A DNA stretch of 64,000 nucleotides from Pseudomonas putida (GTDB taxonomy: Bacteria > Pseudomonadota > Gammaproteobacteria > Pseudomonadales > Pseudomonadaceae): NCBI RefSeq assembly GCF_025905425.1, contig NZ_CP109603.1, positions 5,286,501 to 5,350,500 of the forward strand, given 5' to 3'. Positions 4,644 through 60,061 of the stretch are shown here, in pieces (within the stretch, counting starts at the first letter, position 1; every line of letters begins with the position of its first letter). Made by a program: the position numbers and the translations under genes. Under the pieces are notes generated by a model that was not told the DNA's origin, made no database searches, and was given only the letters and a program-made list of their open reading frames with translations.

Positions 4644-5528
4644 TCACAGCTTGTTCAGTGGAATCTTCAGGTAGCTCACGCCATTGGCCTCGGGCTTCGG
4701 AAAGTGGCCGCTGCGCATGTTGACCTGCACCGATGGCAGGATCAGCACGGGCATGTCGAGGGTCTTGTCGCGGGCTTCGCGCATGGCCACGAAGCTGTCT
4801 TCGTCGATGCCGTGGTGGATGTGAATATTGCTGCTGCGCTGCTCGGCCACGGTCGTGACGTACTGCATGTCGCGCCCGCCCGGTAGGTAGTCGTGGCACA
4901 TGAACAACTGGGTCTGGTCGGGGTAGGCCAGCAGGCGGCGGATCGAACGGTACAGGGTACGCGCGTCAGCACCGGGGAAGTCGCAGCGGGCCGTGCCGTA
5001 GTCAGGCATGAACAGCGTGTCACCGACGAACACCGCCGTTTCACCGCCATCCACCACCACATAGCTCATGCATGCCGGTGTGTGCCCCGGCGTGTGCAAG
5101 GCACGGGCATGCAGGTTGCCGATGCGAAAACCTTCTTCGTCCTCAAGCAGGGCATCGAACTGGCTACCATCTCGGGCAAAGCCGGGTTCGGCATTGAACA
5201 GCGCGCCGAAGACTTTTTGTACCTGAGTGATGTGCGCTCCGATGGCTGTGTGGCCGCCGAGCTTTTGCTTGAGGTAGGCCGCTGCCGAAAGGTGATCTGC
5301 GTGAACATGGGTTTCCAGAATCCACTGCACCTGCGCACCCAGCGCCTCCACCCTGGCGATCAACCGGTCTGCCGAGGCGGTGCAGGTACGCCCTGACTTG
5401 GGGTCGTAATCGAGGACGCTGTCGATCAACGCGCACTTGCGCGTCTCGCCGTCCATGAGCAGGTAGCTGATGGTCGAGGTCGCCTCATCGAAGAAGGCTT
5501 CCACGTGAAGGTTGTTACCGATGATCAT
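4644..5528 (-). CDS. Persulfide dioxygenase-like metallo-beta-lactamase protein (ETHE1/Blh family)
   Basis: Metallo-beta-lactamase-fold protein of 294 residues. The family oxidises glutathione persulfide, made from SQR-derived sulfane sulfur, to sulfite. The metal motif THVHADH lies at residues 73-79, and HTPGHTPACMSYV, VFVGDTLFMPDYG and FMCHDYLPGG supply the remaining ligands. The ATG at 5528 is preceded by GGAGAACGTG; an in-frame upstream ATG at 5591 lies at the predicted promoter start and is unlikely. It is the first gene of the persulfide dioxygenase-SQR-TauE operon, transcribed from a sigma54-type promoter and opposed by a FisR-type activator. The substrate is inferred from family and operon. 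Confidence 0.9.
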   Translation of the reverse strand: MIIGNNLHVEAFFDEATSTISYLLMDGETRKCALIDSVLDYDPKSGRTCTASADRLIARVEALGAQVQWILETHVHADHLSAAAYLKQKLGGHTAIGAHITQVQKVFGALFNAEPGFARDGSQFDALLEDEEGFRIGNLHARALHTPGHTPACMSYVVVDGGETAVFVGDTLFMPDYGTARCDFPGADARTLYRSIRRLLAYPDQTQLFMCHDYLPGGRDMQYVTTVAEQRSSNIHIHHGIDEDSFVAMREARDKTLDMPVLILPSVQVNMRSGHFPKPEANGVSYLKIPLNKL

Positions 5529-13439: not shown

Positions 13440-13820
13440 AACCGCCATTGTACCGGTCGAGCGGTCAGTTATCCACATGTGGATACGTTCGGATCCGTGA
13501 CAAAACAGCCATTTATCGACCAAAACGTCTTCATCACGCTGTGCATAAGCCCTGTGGATAACCGCACCTGAGGGCTATGCACAACCCTGGGTTGAGATCT
13601 GTTGATAACTCACCTGTGGATAATGAGCGTTTTAATCCACAGATTCTGCGCAGGCGGAGCACAAGCGCAGCACCGGATACCGACAGGGTTTCAAAACTCT
13701 GTAAAGCATGAATTTCCTGGTCTGCAGAGGTTTATCCACAGAAAGTTATCCACTTAAGATTTATAAGTTCTTTAAAAAAGCTTTTTAAATGTCTCTTCTT
13801 TTTTTTCATGTTATCCACGA
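13440..13820. other. Chromosomal replication origin oriC (DnaA boxes plus AT-rich unwinding element)
   Basis: The 595-bp dnaA-rpmH gap holds perfect boxes TTATCCACA at 13469 (+), 13553 (-), 13615 (-) and 13732 (+), and TTATGCACA at 13540 (-). One-mismatch boxes lie at 13478 (-), 13575 (+), 13600 (-), 13633 (+), 13746 (+) and 13811 (+). The pair at 13469/13478 forms the perfect palindrome TATCCACATGTGGATA. An AT-rich tract, 13755-13810, lies between boxes on the rpmH side and is the probable DNA unwinding element. Position and content match the known pseudomonad origin. Confidence 0.95.
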
Positions 13821-18044: not shown

Positions 18045-18360
18045 TTTTTCATCCACAGGTGGAAAAAGCCCACCCTGTACCCTGTGGAAAACCATCCATC
18101 AGCTCTCTTGATAACCCCCTCTTTTTCTTGAGGAAAAAACCGCCTGTGTATAAATAGGCATTTAATCCACAGGCTAAAGGGCGTTATCCAGAGCCCTTAT
18201 GGCACTTGAATAACAGGGTTTAATTTCGCTGTACACAGCGCACAATAAGGGCTACAGAACCTTATCCACAGAAAGGTGTGTGCATAAGAATAAACATAAA
18301 AACAAAGCTTTATTAAATTTCTCTTCTTTGATTTTGTTGTCTGCCACTCATCCACAGCCT
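18045..18360. other. Second DnaA-box cluster with AT-rich tract upstream of mnmG (oriC-like module)
   Basis: The 531-bp mnmE-mnmG gap contains a perfect TTATCCACA at 18262, TTATNCACA boxes at 18145 (-) and 18279 (-), and one-mismatch boxes at 18049, 18163, 18184 and 18348. An AT-rich tract runs from about 18285 to 18340. The order box, GAAAG, AT-rich tract with AAGCTT, TCTCTTCTTT copies the right half of oriC: box to AAGCTT is 43 bp here and 46 bp in oriC. DnaA-box regions before gidA have been described for P. putida from memory of the literature. Whether it initiates replication cannot be told. Confidence 0.75.
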
Positions 18361-18454
18361 GATCAAATTTTGCGCAAGCGGTTCCTTTGCAAGGGGGTAA
18401 GTCCCTATACTTGTCCGCTTACCTTCTCTATTCGCAAAAACAGGCACGAGGTGC

Positions 18455-20350
18455 GTGGTGGATTTCCCTTCCCGTTTTGAAGTGATCGTCATCGGCGGCG
18501 GCCATGCCGGTACCGAGGCTGCGCTTGCGTCTGCACGCATGGGTGTCAAAACCCTGCTGTTGACCCATAACGTGGAAACCCTCGGTCACATGAGCTGCAA
18601 CCCCGCGATTGGCGGTATTGGCAAAAGCCATCTGGTCAAAGAGATCGATGCGCTCGGCGGTGCCATGGCATTGGCCACCGACAAGAGCGGCATCCAGTTC
18701 CGCGTTTTGAACAACCGCAAAGGCCCGGCCGTACGCGCCACCCGAGCGCAAGCTGACCGCGCCATCTACAAGGCAGTGGTTCGCGAAATCCTGGAAAACC
18801 AGCCCAACCTGTGGATATTCCAGCAGTCCTGTGACGACCTGATCGTCGAGCAGGACCAGGTCAAAGGTGTGGTGACCCAGATGGGCCTGCGGTTCTTCGC
18901 CGAATCCGTGGTGCTGACTACTGGTACCTTCCTCGGTGGCCTTATCCACATTGGCCTGCAGAACCATTCCGGCGGTCGCGCCGGCGATCCACCTTCGATT
19001 GCCCTGGCGCACCGCATGCGTGAACTGCCGCTGCGCGTGGGCCGTTTGAAAACCGGGACCCCGCCGCGTATCGATGGCCGGTCGGTGGACTTCTCGGTCA
19101 TGACCGAACAACCGGGCGACACTCCGATCCCGGTCATGTCGTTCATGGGCAATGCCCAGATGCATCCGCGCCAGGTGAGCTGCTGGATTACCCACACCAA
19201 CGCCCGCACCCATGAAATCATCGCGTCGAACCTCGACCGTTCGCCGATGTACTCGGGTGTGATCGAAGGCGTAGGCCCGCGCTACTGCCCGTCGATCGAA
19301 GACAAGATCCACCGCTTCGCCGACAAGGAAAGCCATCAGGTGTTCATCGAGCCAGAAGGCCTGACCACCCATGAGCTATACCCCAACGGTATTTCGACTT
19401 CGCTGCCGTTCGACGTGCAGCTGGAGCTCGTGCGTTCGATCCGCGGCATGGAAAACGCACACATCGTGCGCCCAGGCTATGCCATCGAATATGACTACTT
19501 CGACCCGCGTGACCTGAAGTACAGCCTCGAGACCAAAGTCATCGGCGGCCTGTTCTTCGCTGGCCAGATCAACGGCACCACCGGTTACGAAGAGGCCGGT
19601 GCACAAGGCCTGTTGGCCGGTACCAACGCCGCACTGCGTGCGCAAGGCCGCGAAAGCTGGTGCCCGCGCCGCGACGAGGCGTACATCGGGGTACTGGTCG
19701 ACGACCTGATCACCCTGGGTACCCAGGAGCCGTACCGCATGTTCACTTCGCGCGCCGAATACCGGCTGATCCTGCGTGAGGACAACGCCGATCTGCGTCT
19801 GACCGAGAAAGGCCGTGAGCTGGGCTTGATCGATGACGACCGCTGGGCCGCGTTCTGCGCCAAGCGCGACGGTATCGAACGTGAGGAGCAGCGGCTGAAA
19901 TCGACCTGGGTGCGCCCGAACACGCCCCAAGGCCAGGCCGTTGTGGATAAGTTCGGTACCCCCCTGAGCCATGAATACAGCCTGCTCAACCTGCTGGCGC
20001 GTCCAGAAATCGACTACGCCGGGTTGATCGAAGCGACAGGCGGTGAGGAAATCGATCCACAGGTAGCCGAGCAGGTCGAAATCAAGACCAAGTACGCCGG
20101 ATACATCGACCGTCAACAGGATGAGATTGCTCGCCTGCGCGCCAGCGAAGACACCCGCCTGCCTGTGGATATCGACTACACCACGATTTCTGGCCTGTCC
20201 AAGGAAATCCAGGGCAAGCTCGGCCAGACCCGTCCCGAGACGCTGGGCCAGGCTTCGCGTATTCCTGGTGTGACACCGGCGGCCATTTCGCTGCTGCTGA
20301 TTCATCTGAAAAAACGCGGCGCAGGCCGCGAATTGGAGCAAAGCGCTTGA
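18455..20350 (+). CDS. mnmG: tRNA uridine-5-carboxymethylaminomethyl modification enzyme MnmG (GidA)
   Basis: FAD-dependent partner of MnmE in wobble-uridine modification. 631 residues from the GTG at 18455; the adjacent GTG at 18458 is better spaced from GAGG and may be the true start. FAD motif [19 protein letters not shown], the conserved [17 protein letters not shown], the NADH-binding central part, and the EYRL / [10 protein letters not shown] region. Perfect DnaA boxes lie in the gene at 18942 and 19942. Its TGA overlaps the TTG start of rsmG. Confidence 0.98.
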
Positions 20351-20997
20351 GTTCCCAGGTCACCCCGCAACACGCCGAAGAATTATCCACAGGCGCGCGC
20401 CAGCTCGGCATCGAGCTGAGCGCGCAGCAGCACGAAATGCTGCTGGGCTACCTGGCCCTGTTGATCAAATGGAACAAGGCCTACAACCTCACTGCCGTGC
20501 GCGATCCGGACGAGATGGTTTCCCGGCATCTGCTCGACAGCCTCAGTGTCATGTCGTTTATCCACAGCGAGCGCGATAACTGGCTGGATGTCGGCAGTGG
20601 GGGTGGCATGCCGGGTATTCCCTTGGCTATCCTGCACCCACACAAGCAAGTGACGGTTCTGGACAGCAATGGCAAGAAGACCCGCTTCCTGACCCAGGTG
20701 AAACTGGAGCTCAAGCTGGACAACCTGCAGGTTATCCACAGCCGGGTCGAGGAATTCAAACCGGCGCAACCGTTCAGCGGAATCATCTCGCGTGCCTTCA
20801 GCAGCATGGAGAACTTCACCAACTGGACCCGCCATCTGGGCGACACCGGGACGCAATGGCTTGCAATGAAGGGGCTGCATCCTGCCGATGAACTGGTAGC
20901 ATTGCCCGCAGACTTCACAGTGGAAAGCGAGCAGGCCCTGACCGTTCCAGGTTGCCAGGGCCAGCGCCATCTGCTGATACTGCGCCGCAAGGCATGA
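20347..20997 (+). CDS. rsmG: 16S rRNA (guanine527-N7)-methyltransferase RsmG (GidB)
   Basis: SAM-dependent methyltransferase that makes m7G527 of 16S rRNA. 216 residues from a TTG start overlapping the mnmG stop (TTGA). The SAM motif [16 protein letters not shown], the substrate stretch [20 protein letters not shown] and [10 protein letters not shown] are present. Three perfect DnaA boxes (20383, 20558, 20732) fall in the first 400 bp. Followed 18 bp later by parA. Confidence 0.97.
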
Positions 20998-21015
20998 CTG
21001 GGAACACGCGCATCA

Positions 21016-21807
21016 ATGGCTAAGGTATTCGCAATCGCGAACCAGAAAGGTGGTGTGGGCAAGACCACCACCTGTATCAATCTCGCCGCTTCGCTGGCCG
21101 CGACCAAACGTCGTGTGCTGCTGATCGACCTCGATCCGCAAGGCAACGCCACCATGGGCAGCGGTGTCGACAAGCACGAGCTCGAGCACTCGGTATACGA
21201 CTTGCTGATCGGGGAATGCGACCTGGCCCAGGCCATGCATTACTCCGAGCACGGTGGTTTCCAGCTGTTGCCGGCCAACCGTGACCTGACCGCCGCCGAA
21301 GTGGTGCTGCTGGAAATGCAGGTCAAGGAAAGCCGCCTTCGCAACGCCTTGGCGCCGATCCGCGAGAACTACGATTTCATTCTCATCGACTGTCCGCCAT
21401 CGTTGTCGATGCTGACGCTCAACGCGTTGGTCGCCTCCGATGGGGTGATTATCCCGATGCAGTGCGAGTACTACGCACTGGAAGGTCTCAGCGACCTTGT
21501 GGATAACATCAAGCGCATCGCCGCCCGGTTGAATCCGGAGCTGAAAATCGAAGGCCTGTTGCGGACCATGTTCGACCCGCGCCTGAGCCTGAACAACGAT
21601 GTTTCGGCCCAGCTCAAGGAACACTTCGGCGAGCAGCTGTACGACACGGTCATCCCGCGCAACATTCGCCTGGCCGAGGCCCCGAGCTTCGGCATGCCGG
21701 CCCTGGCCTACGACAAGCAATCGCGTGGCGCGCTGGCTTATCTGGCCCTGGCTGGGGAACTGGTGCGCCGTCAGCGCCGTCCATCCCGCACTGCACAAAC
21801 AACTTAA
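21016..21807 (+). CDS. parA: Chromosome partitioning ATPase ParA (Soj)
   Basis: Deviant Walker ATPase that moves ParB-parS complexes over the nucleoid. 263 residues. The deviant Walker A NQKGGVGKTTTCINLA starts at about residue 8; LLIDLDPQGNATMGSG and FILIDCPPSLS follow. Forms an operon with parB, 9 bp apart. A perfect DnaA box lies at 21498 (-). Confidence 0.98.
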   Translation: MAKVFAIANQKGGVGKTTTCINLAASLAATKRRVLLIDLDPQGNATMGSGVDKHELEHSVYDLLIGECDLAQAMHYSEHGGFQLLPANRDLTAAEVVLLEMQVKESRLRNALAPIRENYDFILIDCPPSLSMLTLNALVASDGVIIPMQCEYYALEGLSDLVDNIKRIAARLNPELKIEGLLRTMFDPRLSLNNDVSAQLKEHFGEQLYDTVIPRNIRLAEAPSFGMPALAYDKQSRGALAYLALAGELVRRQRRPSRTAQTT

Positions 21808-30068: not shown

Positions 30069-31436
30069 ATGTCACTCGATATCGTTATTCTCGCCGCCGG
30101 CCAAGGCACCCGCATGCGCTCGGCGCTGCCCAAGGTGCTGCACCCGGTTGCCGGCAATTCCATGCTCGGCCATGTTATCCACAGCGCTCGCCAGCTCCAG
30201 CCGCAAGGTATCCACGTGGTCATTGGCCATGGTGCCGAGCAGGTGCGTGAGCGCCTGGCAGCTGACGACCTGAACTTCGTCATGCAGGACAAGCAGCTGG
30301 GCACAGGCCACGCCGTTGCCCAGGCGCTGCCGGCATTGAGCGCCGACACCGTGCTGGTACTGTACGGCGATGTGCCGTTGATCGAAGTCGAAACCCTGCA
30401 GCGTTTGTTGGCCAAGGCCAACGACCAGCAGTTGGGCCTGCTCACTGTCACCCTCGAAGACCCGACCGGCTACGGCCGTATCGTGCGTGACGAGCAGGGC
30501 AAGGTAACGGCCATCGTTGAGCACAAGGATGCCAACGATGCACAGAAAGCGATCAAGGAAGGCAACACCGGCATTCTGGCCCTGCCAGCCGCGCGTCTGG
30601 CGGACTGGATGAGCCGTTTGTCGAACAACAACGCCCAGGGCGAGTACTACCTGACCGATGTCATCGCCATGGCGGTATCCGACGGCCTGGTGGTTGCCAC
30701 CGAGCAACCTCATGACCCGATGGAAGTGCAGGGCGCCAACGATCGTCGCCAGCTGTCCGAGCTTGAGCGCCACTATCAGCTGCGTGCTGGCCGCCGCCTG
30801 ATGGCCCAGGGTGTCACCCTGCGCGACCCGGCGCGGTTCGATGTGCGCGGTGAAGTGACCGTTGGTCGTGACGTGCTGATCGACATCAACGTGATCCTCG
30901 AAGGCAAGGTGGTCATCGAGGACGATGTTCAGATCGGCCCTAACTGCGTCATCAAGAACACCACCCTGCGCAAAGGCGCGGTGGTCAAGGCTAACAGCCA
31001 CCTCGAAGGCGCCGTGATGGGCGAGGGCAGCGATGCCGGCCCGTTCGCCCGCCTGCGCCCAGGCAGCGTGCTGGACGCCAAGGCCCATGTGGGTAACTTC
31101 GTCGAGCTGAAAAACGCCCACCTGGGTGAAGGCGCCAAAGCGGGTCACCTGAGCTACTTGGGTGATGCCGAAATCGGCGCACGCACCAACATCGGCGCTG
31201 GCACCATCACCTGCAACTACGATGGCGCCAACAAGTTCAAGACCGTGATGGGTGAGGACGTGTTCATCGGTTCCAACAACTCGTTGGTGGCCCCTGTGGA
31301 TATCCAGTCCGGCGCCACCACTGCTGCCGGTTCGACGATCACCCAGACAGTAGAAGCGAGCCAGCTTGCTGTAGGCCGTGCGCGCCAGCGCAATATCGAA
31401 GGCTGGAAGCGGCCGGAGAAGATCACGAAGAGCTGA
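30069..31436 (+). CDS. glmU: Bifunctional GlmU: GlcN-1-P acetyltransferase / GlcNAc-1-P uridyltransferase
   Basis: Makes UDP-GlcNAc, precursor of peptidoglycan and LPS. 455 residues. N-terminal uridyltransferase with [20 protein letters not shown] and YGDVPLI; C-terminal left-handed beta-helix with hexapeptide repeats ([12 protein letters not shown]) and the acetyltransferase stretch [31 protein letters not shown]. Shares its pathway with glmS, two genes downstream. A perfect DnaA box lies at 30175. Confidence 0.98.
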
Positions 31437-31459
31437 GTTATACACAGTTGTTTCGATCG

Positions 31460-31496
31460 AAAGCCGACCTGTGTGAACGGGTCGGCTTTTTTTTTG
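31460..31496 (+). terminator. Rho-independent terminator after glmU
   Basis: AAGCCGACC / GGTCGGCTT stem with a 10-base loop, followed by nine T residues. A DnaA box (TTATCCACA, 31533-31541) lies just downstream, before the DeoR-type gene. Confidence 0.9.
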
Positions 31497-31618
31497 GCTG
31501 TAATATGACCGCGCGTAGCGGGCCCTAGGGAGTTATCCACACCACGTCAGGCTTGACGAAATCACTGTCTTAGGTTTTGATTGCACCTATTATCTTTCGA
31601 ATCGAAACTTAAGCACTC

Positions 31619-32395
31619 ATGTCGAAACGTAACACGCCTCAACGCCGCCACAATATCCTGGCCCTGCTCAGCGAGCAGGGTGAGGTCAGTGTGGACGCGT
31701 TGGCCAAGCGCTTCGAAACCTCGGAAGTCACTATTCGCAAAGACCTCGCCGCCCTGGAAACCAATGGCCTGCTGCTGCGTCGCTACGGCGGTGCGGTGCC
31801 GGTGCCACAAGAGTTGCTTGGCGAACCTACCCAGCCTGTGTCCGCCTACAAGAAGGCCATTGCGCGCGCTGCGGTAGGGCGTATCCGCGAACATGCGCGG
31901 ATCATCATCGACAGCGGCAGCACGACAGCGGCCATGATTCCTGAGCTGGGCCGGCAGCCTGGCTTGGTGGTGATGACCAACTCATTGAACGTGGCCCGTG
32001 CCATCAGCGAGCTGGAGCATGAGCCGGTGTTGCTGATGACCGGTGGTACCTGGGACCCACACTCCGAGTCGTTCCAGGGCCAAGTGGCCGAGCAGGTGCT
32101 GCGTTCATACGATTTCGATCAGCTGTTCATCGGTGCCGATGGCATCGACCTCAACCGGGGTACCACCACCTTCAATGAACTGCTTGGGCTCAGCCGGGTC
32201 ATGGCCGAGGTGGCCCGAGAAGTGATCGTGATGGTCGAGTCCGACAAGGTGGGGCGCAAGATCCCTAACCTCGAGCTGCCCTGGGGCAGTGTGAATACCC
32301 TAATTACAGATGAACGCCTGCCCGCAGCGGCACGCGAACACATTCAAGCCCGCGGCATCAACCTGATTTGCGCCGCGATCAGCCAGGAGCAATAA
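31619..32395 (+). CDS. DeoR-family transcriptional regulator upstream of glmS
   Basis: 258-residue DeoR-type repressor. N-terminal winged helix [39 protein letters not shown], then a sugar-phosphate-sensing domain with [37 protein letters not shown]. Ends 2 bp before the glmS ATG, so it is in the same transcript. It probably adjusts glmS expression to amino-sugar phosphate, an inference from its position and the ligand class of the family. Confidence 0.93.
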
Positions 32396-32397
32396 AC

Positions 32398-34233
32398 ATG
32401 TGTGGAATCGTTGGTGCCGTAGCCGAGCGTAATATCACAGCCATTCTGATCGAAGGCCTCAAGCGCCTCGAATACCGCGGGTACGACAGTGCCGGCCTGG
32501 CCGTTTACAGCCAGCAGGGTGAACTGGAGCGTCGCCGCCGTATCGGTAAGGTCAGCGAGCTGGAAGCCGCCGTTGCTGCTGAGCCGCTCGTCGGCCAGCT
32601 GGGTATCGCCCACACCCGTTGGGCTACTCATGGCGCGCCGACCGAAGGCAACGCTCACCCACACTTCTCGGGCAGTGATGTGGCGGTTGTGCACAACGGC
32701 ATCATCGAGAACCACGAAGAGCTGCGTGAAGAGCTCAAAGACCTGGGCTACGTGTTCACGTCGCAGACCGATACCGAAGTCATCGTCCACCTGATCCACC
32801 ACACGCTCAAGACTGTTCCAGACCTGACCGACGCGCTCAAGTCCGCAGTCAAGCGCCTGCATGGCGCCTATGGCCTGTCGGTGATCAGCGCTAAACAGCC
32901 TGACCGCCTGGTAGCTGCTCGCAGCGGCAGCCCACTGGTGATCGGCCTGGGCCTTGGCGAAAACTTCCTGGCCTCGGACCAATTGGCTCTGCGCCAGGTC
33001 ACCGACCGCTTCATGTACCTGGAAGAAGGCGACATCGCTGAAATCCGCCGTGACCAGGTCAGCATCTGGGACCAGGCCGGCAACAAGGTCCAGCGTGAAA
33101 CCGTGCAGTACCACGAAGGCGCTGAAGCGGCGGACAAGGGTACCTACCGCCACTTCATGCTCAAGGAAATCCACGAGCAGCCAAGCGTGGTCCAGCGTAC
33201 GTTGGAAGGCCGCCTGGGCAAGGACAACGTGCTGGTCCAGGCCTTCGGCCCGAACGCCGCCGAACTGTTCGCCAAGGTTCGCAACGTGCAGATCGTCGCA
33301 TGCGGTACCAGCTACCACGCCGGCATGGTTGCCCGTTACTGGCTCGAAGGCCTGGCCGGCATCCCATGCCAGGTCGAAGTGGCCAGCGAGTTCCGTTACC
33401 GCAAGGTAGTGGTGCAGCCCGACACCCTGTTCGTCTCGATCTCGCAATCCGGTGAAACCGCCGATACCCTGGCTGCCCTGCGCAACGCCAAGGAGCTGGG
33501 CTTCCTCGGCAGCCTGGCGATCTGCAACGTCGGCATCAGCTCGCTGGTGCGTGAATCCGACCTGACCCTGCTGACCCTGGCCGGCCCAGAGATCGGCGTT
33601 GCCTCGACCAAAGCGTTCACCACCCAGCTGGTTTCGCTGATGCTGCTGACCCTGGCCTTGGGCCAAGTGCGCGGCACCCTCGAAGCCGGTGTGGAAGCCG
33701 AGCTGGTTGAAGAGTTGCGTCGCCTGCCGGCCCGTCTGGGCGAGGCACTGGCCATGGACGCGACCGTCGAGAAGATCGCCGAGCTGTTCGCTGACAAGCA
33801 CCACACCCTGTTCCTGGGTCGTGGCGCCCAGTACCCGGTGGCGATGGAAGGTGCGCTCAAGCTCAAGGAGATCTCCTACATCCACGCCGAAGCCTACCCG
33901 GCAGGCGAGCTGAAGCACGGCCCGCTGGCGCTTGTGGATAACGACATGCCGGTGGTTACCGTGGCGCCGAACAACGAACTGCTGGAGAAGCTCAAGTCCA
34001 ACCTGCAGGAAGTGCGTGCCCGTGGTGGTGAGCTGGTGGTGTTCGCCGACGAACAGGCTGGCATGACCAACGGTGAAGGGACCCACGTGATCAAGGTGCC
34101 GCACATTTCTGACGCCCTGGCACCGATCCTGTACACCATTCCGCTGCAGCTGCTGTCGTACTACGTGGCCGTGCTCAAGGGCACCGACGTTGACCAGCCG
34201 CGCAACCTGGCGAAATCGGTGACGGTGGAATAA
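32398..34233 (+). CDS. glmS: Glutamine--fructose-6-phosphate aminotransferase (isomerizing)
   Basis: Makes glucosamine-6-phosphate from fructose-6-phosphate and glutamine, first step to UDP-GlcNAc. 611 residues from the ATG at 32398: MCGIVGAV, with the N-terminal nucleophile Cys. Glutaminase domain with HTRWATHG, then two SIS domains ([44 protein letters not shown]), and the C-terminus [11 protein letters not shown], whose DNA forms the Tn7 recognition site. A perfect DnaA box lies at 33933. Confidence 0.98.
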
Positions 34234-56330: not shown

Positions 56331-56717
56331 TCAGCGGCAACCGCCAATCAAGCTGCAGTGCAGGTTGACGCGCTGCCCGCTGGAACTTGAAACACGGTTC
56401 AAGGTGGTCCAGCCGATGCGACGGCTATAGCCCACCCAAGCTTCGCCATCGCTGGCCAAGCCTGTGTAGAACGTCAACGAACCATAGCGGCTGTTGGTTT
56501 GCGCCCATAAACGCCGGCTCGTGTGCTCATACCCACGCAGATAGAACGTGCTGCCTTCGGTGCGCACACTGTAGTAACTGCCCTTGCCATCCTGGCAGGC
56601 CAACAGGGTTGCACTGCGCGTGCACAGTGCCAACGCGTTGTTTTGTGGCATGGCTAACAGGGTTGAGGGCACGGCCATCAACAGCAACATCACCGCGCGC
56701 TGCGGCTTCATTTTCAT
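56331..56717 (-). CDS. Small secreted cysteine-containing protein in the Zur divergon, unknown function
   Basis: 128 residues with a signal peptide (MKMKPQRAVMLLLMAVPSTLLA). The mature part has four Cys (ALCTRSATLLAC and NLHCSLIGGC), enough for two disulfides, and many Ser, Tyr and Arg. I do not recognise the family. It is the first gene before folE2 and is 44 bp from a Zur-like palindrome, so it is probably made under zinc limitation. Start may be 56717 or the ATG at 56711. Confidence 0.75.
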   Translation of the reverse strand: MKMKPQRAVMLLLMAVPSTLLAMPQNNALALCTRSATLLACQDGKGSYYSVRTEGSTFYLRGYEHTSRRLWAQTNSRYGSLTFYTGLASDGEAWVGYSRRIGWTTLNRVSSSSGQRVNLHCSLIGGCR

Positions 56718-56760
56718 TTCCGGTGATCACTCTGCGACGAGAACAGCTTGGCGAAATTGT

Positions 56761-56779
56761 ATTGTTACTTTATAACATT
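56761..56779. promoter_or_regulatory. Zur box between the folE2 and cobW operons
   Basis: ATTGTTACTTTATAACATT: TGTTA-N5-TAACA, matching the gammaproteobacterial Zur consensus TGTTATANTATAACA at 12 of 14 specified positions. It is central in the 107-bp gap between two divergent operons whose genes (folE2, cobW, DUF1826) are known members of Zur regulons. Confidence 0.85.
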
Positions 56780-56824
56780 ATGCAATGCATCGTTTCGAAT
56801 GCGTCTGCCTGAAGAGGTTTCGCC

Positions 56825-58033
56825 ATGCCCACCCGTCTCCCCGTTACCGTGCTGTCTGGCTTCCTTGGCGCCGGCAAGAGCACCCTGCTCAATCACGTGC
56901 TGCGTAACCGCGACAACCTGCGCGTCGCAGTGATCGTCAACGACATGAGTGAAATCAACATTGATGCCAGCGAGGTCCAGCGCAACGTGAGCCTCAACCG
57001 CGCTGAAGAAAAGCTGGTGGAGATGAGCAACGGTTGCATCTGCTGCACCCTGCGCGAAGACCTGCTTGAAGAAGTTGCGCGGCTGGCTGAGGAGGGGCGC
57101 TTCGATTACCTGTTGATCGAGTCCACCGGGATCTCGGAGCCGCTGCCGGTGGCCGAGACGTTTACCTTTCGCGATGAGCAAGGTCGCAGCCTCAGCGACA
57201 TGGCACGCCTCGATACCATGGTCACCGTGGTCGATGGCCTGAACTTTCTTCGCGATTACCAGGCGGCAGACAGCCTGGCGAGCCGTGGCGAGACACTGGG
57301 TGAGGACGATGAGCGTTCGATCAGCGACCTGCTGATCGAGCAGGTCGAGTTCGCCGATGTGCTGTTGTTGAGCAAGATCGACCTGATCAGCCAGCACGAA
57401 CGGGAAGAGCTGACCGCCATTCTGCGCAGCCTCAACGCCAGGGCTCAGATCGTGCCCATGGTCATGGGCGAGGTGCCGCTGGCGCGTATCCTCGACACCG
57501 GCCTGTTCGACTTCGACCAAGCCGCGCAGGCACCCGGTTGGCTGCAGGAATTACGCGGCGAGCATGTACCGGAAACCGAAGAGTACGGCATCGCCGCCAG
57601 CACTTGGCAGGCCCGGCGTCCGCTTCATCCACAGCGCTTTTTTGACTTTATCCACAAGCCCTGGACTAACGGCCGGCTGCTGCGTTCGAAGGGGTTTTTC
57701 TGGTTGGCCAGCAAGTATCAAGAAGCCGGTAGCTGGTCGCAGGCAGGGGGCATGATGCGGCATGGCATGGCCGGTCGCTGGTGGCGATTCGTGCCACGTG
57801 AACATTGGCCGCAGGATGTGGATAACTCCGAGGCGATATTGAAGCACTGGACCGTCGAGACGGGTGACTGCCGCCAGGAACTGGTGTTCATCGGGCAGAA
57901 TATCGACTTCGAAAAGTTATCCACAGAGCTTGAAGCGTGCCTGTTGACGGATGAAGAAATGGACCTTGGGCCGATGGGCTGGCTACGCCTGGACGATCCA
58001 TTCGGCCCCTGGCACGAGGAGGCGGCAGCATGA
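56825..58033 (+). CDS. CobW/ZNG1-family GTPase (zinc metallochaperone)
   Basis: 402-residue COG0523 GTPase. Walker [17 protein letters not shown], the metal-binding GCICC in [12 protein letters not shown], Walker [23 protein letters not shown]-like LSKIDL, and a C-terminal CobW_C domain ([19 protein letters not shown]). Family members deliver Zn to chosen proteins in zinc limitation. Behind a Zur box; overlaps the DUF1826 gene by 4 bp. Carries three perfect DnaA boxes (57648, 57817, 57917). Confidence 0.93.
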
Positions 58034-59510
58034 ACCTCGCCCCCAGGCCTGTGGATATCTTTCAGGTGTTTGGTGATTCGCCGCAGGTGCTGACCGACGT
58101 TCTGCAGGACGGTGTGAACCTGGCGGTGTGGCGTCGGCGCTTGCCAGCGCAGTTGGAAGATTTTGCACAGTTGGTCATCAGCCTCGGCCAGCCTTTGGCT
58201 GACCAGCGCGTGATCGATGTGGACGAGCAGCAGATGCCGGTGTTTACCGACCTGCTGCGCGAAGCTGCCGACCTGCAGGGCTATGAAAGCTTCGTCGCCG
58301 ATGTGGCCTGGCTGGTAGCCGCCTATACCTGCCTGCTCGGCGCACGCCGGGTGGGCTTGCGCCTGCGTGTGCTGCAAGGGCCGATGTGCCCAAGGTTCCA
58401 TGTGGACCACGTGCCGCTGCGCCTGCTCACCAGCTATGCGGGCCCCGGCAGCGAATGGCTGGAAGAAGGCGCGCTAGATCGGCGCGAATTGCACCAGGCC
58501 ATCCCCCCTGTGGATAACATCCGGTGCCTGCAGGCGGGGGAAGTGGCCGTGCTCAAAGGCGAAAAGTGGCAGGGCAACGAGGGTACCGGGCTGGTGCATC
58601 GCTCGCCATCCGGGCGGCAAGGGCGCTTGTTGCTGAGCCTTGACTGGTTGGCGTGACGGCGCATAGTGAGGCTCACATCCAGCCTGAAGTCATGCCATGT
58701 TGCAGAACATTCCTACCCACGTGATCGCCGGCCCACTGGGGGCCGGCAAGACCACGCTGATCCGTCATTTGCTGGCGCAGCGCCCCGCAGACGAACGGTG
58801 GGCCGTGTTGATCAATGAGTTCGGCCTGGTAGGGCTCGACGCCGCGTTGCTAAGCCGCGACGAGGACGGTATCGCTATCGGCGAGGTTGCAGGGGGGTGC
58901 CTGTGCTGTGTCAACGGCATGCCGTTTCAGGTTGGCCTGGGGCGGCTGCTGCGCAAGGCACGGCCTGATCGGCTGTTCATCGAGCCATCCGGCCTTGGTC
59001 ATCCGTTGCAGTTGCTCACTCAACTCAAGCAGGCCCCTTGGGCTGGAGTGCTGACAATCCAGCCACTTCTGATGGTTGTGGACGCTCAGAAAATGGTACG
59101 GGGCGAGGCACTCCCAGAGGCTCAATTGCAGGCTTTTGATGCGTCTGAGACGGTAGTTTTCAACAAATCAGAGCGTGTGGATGAATATCATAGGTTGTTG
59201 ATAACTAAGAAATTTCAAAAAAAAGTTATCCTCTGGACAAGCCAGGGAGTGTTGCCCCTTTCGCAGCTTCCAATTTCATCCACAGGGGGTATTTCGTCCC
59301 CAGATGTGGATAACAGGATTGTCGACAATCTTGGAATTGCGCCTGCAACCCTATGGAATAAGCCTGATGAGCCAATCTGCAGTGCGCAGCAAGGGGAGGG
59401 TGGTTGGAGTATTGGCTGGCGCTGGCATCCCAGTCAGCAATTTTATCCACAACGCTTATTAGCGTTTTTGCACGCCTGGCCGTGGCGCCGTGCGAAGGGA
59501 GTTATCCACA
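57648..59510. other. DnaA-box cluster within the cobW-DUF1826-cobW2 operon
   Basis: Seven perfect TTATCCACA boxes in 1.9 kb: 57648 (+), 57817 (-), 57917 (+), 58509 (-), 59304 (-), 59443 (+), 59502 (+). One-mismatch boxes at 59176, 59196 and 59276 surround an AT-rich tract at about 59195-59230. The density is far above chance (about one per 130 kb per 9-mer on both strands at even composition). Possible DnaA titration or regulatory region. Confidence 0.65.
58030..58656 (+). CDS. DUF1826 protein of the zinc-starvation operon
   Basis: 208 residues starting with an ATGA overlap to cobW. DUF1826 is typical next to cobW in pseudomonad Zur regulons. The stretch [14 protein letters not shown], together with GLVHRSP, looks like a His-x-Asp...His metal site of a cupin or 2-oxoglutarate-dependent oxygenase, but that is only a similarity of pattern. 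Carries a perfect DnaA box at 58509. Confidence 0.82.
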
Positions 59511-59668
59511 CAGGCCAAGGCTGGCAGTCTTTCAATGGGCTGGACGGGGTGTTACCGGACTGGCAGCCGAGCGACTGGCGCAGGGATACGCGCATCGAGT
59601 TGATTTTTGATCAAGCTCAACCGCGACCGGCCCTGGAGGCCGGTTTGAAGGAATGCCTTATTCGCTGA
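58697..59668 (+). CDS. Second CobW-family GTPase
   Basis: 323-residue COG0523 protein, distinct from the first. Walker A AGPLGAGKTTLIRHLL, metal motif GCLCC in GGCLCCVNGMPF, LFIEPSGLGHPLQLL, NKSE-type FNKSERVDE, and a short C-terminal domain with HAWPWRRAKGVIHTGQGWQ. The middle part (about 59150-59320) is unusually AT-rich against its neighbours. Carries three perfect DnaA boxes (59304, 59443, 59502). Third gene of the operon, 40 bp after DUF1826. Confidence 0.88.
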   Translation: MLQNIPTHVIAGPLGAGKTTLIRHLLAQRPADERWAVLINEFGLVGLDAALLSRDEDGIAIGEVAGGCLCCVNGMPFQVGLGRLLRKARPDRLFIEPSGLGHPLQLLTQLKQAPWAGVLTIQPLLMVVDAQKMVRGEALPEAQLQAFDASETVVFNKSERVDEYHRLLITKKFQKKVILWTSQGVLPLSQLPISSTGGISSPDVDNRIVDNLGIAPATLWNKPDEPICSAQQGEGGWSIGWRWHPSQQFYPQRLLAFLHAWPWRRAKGVIHTGQGWQSFNGLDGVLPDWQPSDWRRDTRIELIFDQAQPRPALEAGLKECLIR

Positions 59669-60061
59669 TCAGTTGCGCCAGCGGTTGTGCTCCTGACGCC
59701 ACTGCTGCATCTCGATCACATTGTCGGTGCGTGGGGGCGTCTTGATCTCGAACGGGTAGGGCGCCAGTTCGATCTGCACGCTGTGGGCACCGAACTGGGT
59801 GACGGTGCCTGGGTGGCGCTGCTCACCCGTTACGGTGAACTCGAAGGCATAGATGCGCGCCAGGCGCTTTTTGCCATTGGCGTCACGCACAAAGGCGATG
59901 CGCTTGAGGGCGACGGCATCGTCCAGCAGTTCGAGGTCGAGCTTGGCGCAATGCTGCTTGACCCGCTCCAGGGCTTTCTCGCGCAACCCATGGTTGTGCC
60001 ACAACCAAGCGCCTGCCGTGGCTACCAGCATCAGGACGAAGAGATTCTCCAGGGTCAACAT
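59669..60061 (-). CDS. DUF3301 small membrane-anchored protein
   Basis: 130 residues from the ATG at 60061, with GGAG 9 bp upstream; the longer open frame begins with TTG at 60076. N-terminal membrane helix [20 protein letters not shown], then a soluble domain with [28 protein letters not shown] and [15 protein letters not shown], as in DUF3301. Function unknown. Divergent from pdxY over 120 bp. Confidence 0.8.

Follow-up and report, generated by a model that had tools for sequence, protein, structure and literature searches.

A conserved cluster of DnaA boxes within the coding sequence of an origin-proximal zigA operon in Pseudomonas putida

The window, by which we mean the whole 64,000-nucleotide stretch of Pseudomonas putida DNA analysed here, carries a three-gene operon consisting of zigA, a DUF1826 gene and a second cobW gene, cobW2. 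The coding sequences of these genes contain seven perfect copies of the DnaA box TTATCCACA, three in zigA, one in the DUF1826 gene and three in cobW2 (Table 1). Five additional sites, at 57625, 58050, 59176, 59196 and 59276, each differ from the perfect box by one mismatch, and the cluster is made up of the seven perfect boxes and about three well-conserved variant boxes. A profile search places folE2 near the operon, and the closest named relative of cobW2 among the matches listed is that of P. capeferrum (88%). The window also includes dnaA and the adjoining oriC box cluster, and the operon thus lies 44 kb from the origin. An earlier note on this DNA had reported the seven boxes on both strands between 57648 and 59510, all of which are present, but overlooked oriC within the window and the presence of other box clusters, besides that of the operon, close to the origin.

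Table 1. Genes, DnaA boxes and other features of the window
Feature	Position	Strand	Description	Evidence or conservation
dnaA	11870..13399	-		TIGR00362 629.7 bits (cut-off 343.9)
oriC box cluster adjoining dnaA	13469..13819		four perfect boxes (13469-13740) and variants including TTATCAACA
Neighbouring origin-proximal cluster	18262..21506		7 perfect boxes; begins just upstream of mnmG and reaches a parA-like gene	genes profile-matched
Further origin-proximal boxes	30175, 31533, 33933		region 30175..33941
Zur-like operator	56763..56779	+	~60 bp upstream of zigA	two mismatches against the consensus TGTTATANTATAACATT
zigA	56825..58033	+	zinc metallochaperone GTPase, COG0523 family	NF038288 683.5 bits (cut-off 600); PF02492 and PF07683
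Variant box TCATCCACA	57625..57633	+		no special conservation, z 0.2-0.7
DnaA box TTATCCACA	57648..57656	+	inner codons ATC CAC	exact in 16/22 clade rows
DnaA box TTATCCACA	57817..57825	-	inner codons GTG GAT	exact in 8/22 clade rows
DnaA box TTATCCACA	57917..57925	+	in-frame TTA TCC ACA
DUF1826 gene	58030..58656	+	1 perfect and 1 variant box	PF08856, E 2.6e-62
Variant box ATATCCACA	58050..58058	-		synonymous conservation z 4.9
DnaA box TTATCCACA	58509..58517	-		exact in 19/22 clade rows
cobW2	58697..59668	+	second cobW/COG0523 gene; 3 perfect boxes plus variants	PF02492 and PF07683
Variant box TCATCCACA	59176..59184	-		kept in 28/42 named loci (L141-L182)
AT-rich tract	59190..59235		74% AT	holds the conserved variant box 59196
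Variant box TTATCAACA	59196..59204	-	same variant in oriC at 13600
Variant box TCATCCACA	59276..59284	+		weak conservation, synonymous z 2.1
DnaA box TTATCCACA	59305..59313	-	197 bp from partner 59502	exact in 7/22 clade and 28/46 other Pseudomonas rows
DnaA box TTATCCACA	59443..59451	+		exact in 8/22 clade rows
DnaA box TTATCCACA	59502..59510	+	most widely kept	exact in 20/22 clade and 28/46 other rows

The abundance of the boxes was compared with several random expectations. Dinucleotide shuffles of the window yield a mean of 0.14 and a maximum of 2 perfect boxes in 100 shuffles, versus 22 observed; the figure of about 0.01 originally expected for 1.9 kb was of the right order, the shuffles giving approximately 0.004. 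Codon-preserving shuffles of zigA, the DUF1826 gene and cobW2 give means of 0.27, 0.09 and 0.45 boxes, together 0.82, against 3, 1 and 3, or seven, in the actual genes, and the largest counts in 3000 such shuffles are 2, 1 and 4, respectively, so that by itself only zigA exceeds them all. Within 100 kb on either side of oriC, TTATCCACA ranks first of 1680 permutations in each of the four genomes scored, with 41 boxes in the present genome (G000), 34 in G065, 36 in G121 and 18 in G113 against permutation means of 0.3-0.56. Chance as the source of the operon boxes is ruled out by these dinucleotide shuffles, codon shuffles and word permutations. The boxes are also locally concentrated: when 41 boxes are placed at random over 190 kb, seven fall within 1.86 kb in a fraction of only 0.0001 of 20,000 simulations.

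Across the whole genome there are 116 perfect boxes, compared to 8 copies of the reversed word, and their distribution is graded, with 41 less than 100 kb from oriC, 63 at 0.1-1 Mb and only 12 over the 4.1 Mb that remain (sort order was used to place 16 boxes, beyond 5.83 Mb, and individual positions to place the others). The 88 boxes of G065 divide over the same three distance classes as 34, 47 and 7, and five of the seven box positions in the cluster at 18262..21506 are kept in that genome. Equal density elsewhere in the chromosome, which the earlier note had set against its own proposal, is not found in the 464 kb covered: no other 1.86 kb there is as dense as the operon, the second-highest count being 5. 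The general density of boxes near oriC is insufficient as the whole explanation, since 80 named loci contain 329 perfect boxes in the operon and 6 in the flanks (approximately 4 kb per locus), with no copy of the reversed word.

Several other arrangements of boxes were observed in this genome. A second dense cluster, 385 kb away from oriC (L111 8483-10479; G000:C1:4914983-4916979), has five perfect boxes within 2 kb and lies in and upstream of what appears by eye to be an electron-transfer-flavoprotein operon. Three boxes in the order +,-,- occur at approximately 6240-7105 of L112 (G000:C1:4577740-4578605), and their counterparts in G065, at 4377198, 4377868 and 4378043, have the same order and similar spacing. 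At a distance of about 1.4 Mb from oriC, two perfect boxes next to a gene of FKBP-like appearance by eye form an inverted pair with five bases between them (L113 ~5275-5297; G000:C1:3921775-3921797), and the 14-base-offset pair is also found in G057, G017 and G065. The cumulative GC skew of the window reaches its minimum at about 34 kb (bin 32001-34000), roughly 20 kb from the dnaA-side oriC.

Conservation of the boxes was followed in two sets of relatives. The 80 named loci, the best-matching of 362, are biased to near relatives; 78 carry Pseudomonas in their titles and two (L166 and L169) Pantoea, presumably misnamed records, and the set was divided by rank, with no tree, into L141-L182 (42 loci) and L183-L220 (38 loci). 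Codon tests employed 22 clade rows (L022-L043, chosen on their DUF1826 identity rank) and a further 46 rows (L044-L090, L052 excluded); because the rows share descent, binomial P values serve as guides and do not describe independent events. Of 154 comparisons of box words between the 22 clade relatives and the window, 95 are exact, versus 12% for other nine-base words. Loss of boxes at synonymous sites in close relatives had been named beforehand as evidence against the proposal; the boxes are mostly kept, with 57817, 59305 and 59443 exact in only 7-8 of the 22.

Where a relative has the same inner residues, it uses the same codons in 96 of 98 box comparisons, as against 34% of two-codon windows and 21% of three-codon windows elsewhere. 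The inner codons agree in 17 of 17 such rows at box 57648, in 8 of 8 at each of boxes 57817 and 59443, and in 19 of 19 at box 58509. At box 57917 the codons TTA TCC ACA are kept in 17 of 19 rows with matching residues, compared to 1 of 46 for the other TTA codons of the three genes. The minus-strand boxes extend this pattern beyond synonymous sites: the base immediately preceding GTG GAT is a third codon position, and in rows encoding V-D-N/K it is T in 34/34 clade and 29/29 other cases, fixed though the residue varies (D, H, P, S, Y, A, L, V, F, I, G) and T makes up 15% of third positions in the background. The box words encode six different peptides, and at some positions the box bases stay while the residues change. 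The presence of boxes in three frames and on both strands indicates that DNA rather than protein is conserved.

A scan for synonymous conservation, in which 866 codon windows were scored blind to the boxes, gives its top five positions to four perfect boxes and to the 59196 variant TTATCAACA; the best 16 places comprise eight boxes or variants and eight that are not boxes. Box windows rank above the rest with P values of 2e-9 for perfect and 2e-5 for variant boxes, values that are rough, as the windows overlap. The pair formed by 59305 and 59502 reaches furthest, its 197-bp spacing occurring in 32 of the 80 named loci. We conclude that the operon cluster is real and strongly selected: across much of Pseudomonas its sites are conserved at synonymous positions and even at positions where a change would alter the amino acid.

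TTATCCACA occurs in every one of the 149 genomes sampled from the genus, and the excess over the reversed word ranges from large, as in the present genome, to slight (32/24 in G014, 16/7 in G028 and 16/9 in G054). Boxes are absent from 10 of the 70 stretches L021-L090, one of which, L052, is without zigA and cobW2, and 26 of the 149 genomes have no DUF1826 match. These box-free stretches and DUF1826-less genomes imply that the cluster is dispensable somewhere and can be lost. At the level of the order, three single boxes occur in 29 stretches around DUF1826, 28 of them outside the genus, the stretches being defined by DUF1826. Over the region within 100 kb on either side, aligned boxes are kept in 28 of 40 cases in G065 (background 29%), 24 of 40 in G091 (24%) and 16 of 33 in G121 (18%). 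G113 keeps 1 of 20, below its background of 18%, yet the same distance around its dnaA (L131-L140) contains no reversed word and its 18 boxes, nearly all at other positions. Density is retained there although the individual sites have moved, which we take to reflect selection for how many sites lie near oriC, with no single layout fixed, and which suggests turnover under selection for density. In one genome, G029 (L221-L230; G029:C1:4302001-4502000), a rearrangement puts the operon block 1.3 Mb from dnaA, and the 197-bp pair is kept.

We consider it probable, with room for doubt, that the operon is an origin-proximal DnaA-titration cluster written into coding DNA and kept by selection on the DNA. 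Sites close to oriC are the earliest to be copied and can therefore soak up DnaA after initiation. Lying 44 kb from the origin, the cluster would be replicated soon after initiation; its replication would double the number of high-affinity sites, free DnaA would fall, and re-initiation would be delayed. Together with the other boxes within about 100 kb (41 including those of oriC itself), the operon cluster may form one distributed sponge. We infer binding of DnaA in the cell, a lowering of free DnaA and an effect on initiation timing from the arrangement of the sites. The reading of the cluster as a DnaA reservoir, which the earlier note had offered first, is supported by position near oriC and by conservation at the level of single bases.

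Some observations weigh against titration. Within the clade, box number does not track distance from oriC (rho -0.15, P 0.51; 21 genomes); over 28 genomes of mixed ancestry the values are rho -0.45 and P 0.017 (28 of the 30 loci L021-L050, two being left out because dnaA is on another contig), and distance has no clear effect overall. The boxes at 57817 and 59305 have synonymous z values of 2.3-2.9, below the 95th percentile of other windows (3.06), and half of the 16 best places in that scan are not boxes. The box-free stretches, the genomes with no DUF1826 match and the near-complete change of aligned positions in G113 are also contrary to it. In B. subtilis, an intragenic DnaA site in rplB is described as bound in vitro and undetected in vivo, perhaps as a result of transcription (PMC4447404), which implies that sites in coding sequence may not be occupied. 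Our search of open-licence literature returned no DnaA-binding or replication data for Pseudomonas, and no description of this box cluster in titles and the starts of abstracts. Moreover, titration alone does not account for the presence of boxes in this operon over its neighbours.

The cluster could instead be a regulator of the datA type, on which a DnaA complex would assemble and catalyse the hydrolysis of DnaA-ATP, an activity beyond storage. The dense mixture of perfect and variant boxes near oriC fits such a role, and datA itself, originally regarded as a site of titration, came to be described as one of hydrolysis (PMC5295017). We regard this as unlikely, because the sequence from 56701 to 59700 contains, on either strand, no match to the strict IHF consensus WATCAANNNNTTR (a weaker site may be present among the boxes), and the cluster is for this reason not classed as datA. 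The sets of boxes also vary among lineages, even the 197-bp pair being restricted to the 32 loci given above.

Quite unlikely, in our judgement, is a transcriptional role, in which DnaA within the body of the operon would block or tune transcription and couple zinc-starvation genes to the cell cycle. The concentration of boxes in the operon relative to its flanks is as such a role would have it, and DnaA bound at datA box 2 and at asnC is reported as able to attenuate transcription (PMC10950094). However, the 250 bp upstream of zigA hold one box summed over up to 80 loci, the boxes, which face either way, are spread from the late part of zigA to that of cobW2, and the array extends into genes unrelated to zinc, such as dnaA, mnmG and the parA-like gene.

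The Zur-like site upstream of zigA is of a kind expected 0.01 times per window by chance at three or fewer mismatches, and sites at this threshold are present in 64 of the 80 named loci versus 0 of 80 control segments inside zigA; the other 16 loci have 8-9 mismatches. In P. aeruginosa, ZigA is described as abundant only under zinc depletion, when it rises 57-fold (PMC11761036). Zur control of dksA2 and the genes following it is reported as absent in the putida and syringae groups (PMC10393844); unlike that dksA2-linked control, zigA here has its own Zur-like site. One can imagine a zinc-gated DnaA store, in which the operon would be off and its DNA would hold DnaA when zinc is replete, and in which Zur would leave upon starvation and transcription would eject DnaA and shift initiation. 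Indirect support comes from the zinc response of ZigA, from the Zur-like sites, from the statement that transcription through datA reduces IHF binding there (PMC10950094), and from the ending of the boxes at the operon edges in the 80 named loci. Against it, other conserved origin-proximal boxes lie within genes such as dnaA and mnmG, and Zur control of dksA2 is reported as absent in the putida group; we hold this scheme to be distinctly improbable.

The sequence within cobW2 had also raised the prospect of a cryptic or ancestral replication origin, as boxes and near-boxes were noted around an AT-rich tract. The tract and the variant boxes are indeed present, and an 11-mer of cobW2, TGTTGATAACT, is shared with oriC. 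The variant site at 59196 reads TGTTGATAA in 38 of the 42 loci L141-L182 and is the perfect box TGTGGATAA in 11 of the 38 loci L183-L220. The boxes are conserved, but the tract is not: among the 42 named relatives of highest rank its AT content varies between 33 and 80%, and the 38 that follow have a mean of 43%, so that the conserved AT-rich unwinding region expected beside the boxes of an oriC is lacking, and dnaA and oriC themselves are 44 kb away. Because the tract is not conserved, an origin at this site is not supported, and we consider it highly improbable. The observation made in the earlier note thus stands, whereas its interpretation does so in part, with the reservoir supported and the origin set aside. 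Finally, that the boxes are a by-product of protein or codon conservation is scarcely credible: GTG, GAT and ATC are well kept outside boxes in the operon genes (65%, 58% and 79%), and codon shuffles of cobW2 alone can reach its count, but the same codons occur per box in 89-100% of cases versus 0.3-38% expected, the shifting residues and the three frames speak against it, and codon usage and protein constraint are ruled out by codon identity inside boxes compared to elsewhere.

Whether titration of DnaA by chromosomal boxes controls initiation is an old question, and the authors of a 2025 study of E. coli state that experimental evidence for titration had been lacking (PMC12371093). Pseudomonas offers a sharp case, in which boxes are kept through codons at single-base resolution and lineages keep, move or lose them. 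Because the sites are part of genes, synonymous changes can eliminate them and leave the proteins untouched, making the titration model directly testable. These data further suggest that a DNA signal can determine short peptide stretches, such as VDN and IH in zigA and cobW2.

DARS1 and DARS2 of E. coli possess a three-box core of fixed layout. They resemble the operon cluster as chromosomal DnaA-box loci that affect initiation, and differ in that they reactivate DnaA (PMC5295017). The datA locus also resembles the operon cluster, being described as approximately 1 kb with five high-affinity boxes and as a negative regulator once seen as a sink (PMC5295017), but it is intergenic, lies downstream of tRNA-Gly genes and has an IHF site (PMC10950094). 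In E. coli and Salmonella, too, box density is reported as highest near oriC, which is seen as favouring titration (Olivi 2025, PMC12371093). That study analyses density per centisome, whereas the present work follows single sites through codons, and Pseudomonas is absent from its main text (0 occurrences). The oriC-proximal DnaA-box clusters (DBCs) of B. subtilis also lie outside oriC (Okumura 2012, via PMC5295017). According to that review, cells without six DBCs initiate early, an effect that is strong only if none of the six is left and that is partly relieved when one DBC is put back, and the review judges the DBCs to be of no significant role (PMC5295017). They belong to a distant lineage, and the Pseudomonas sites differ in being located in coding sequence and kept through codons, with a function that is here predicted. 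What we would look for in a DBC-like cluster, an excess of boxes beyond composition and codons and several boxes outside but near oriC (seven, 44 kb away), is found in the operon; conservation as DNA, a mark that we add ourselves, is found as well, though not in every lineage. The operon cluster most likely fits the DBC kind, a known type that would here have its sites in coding DNA.
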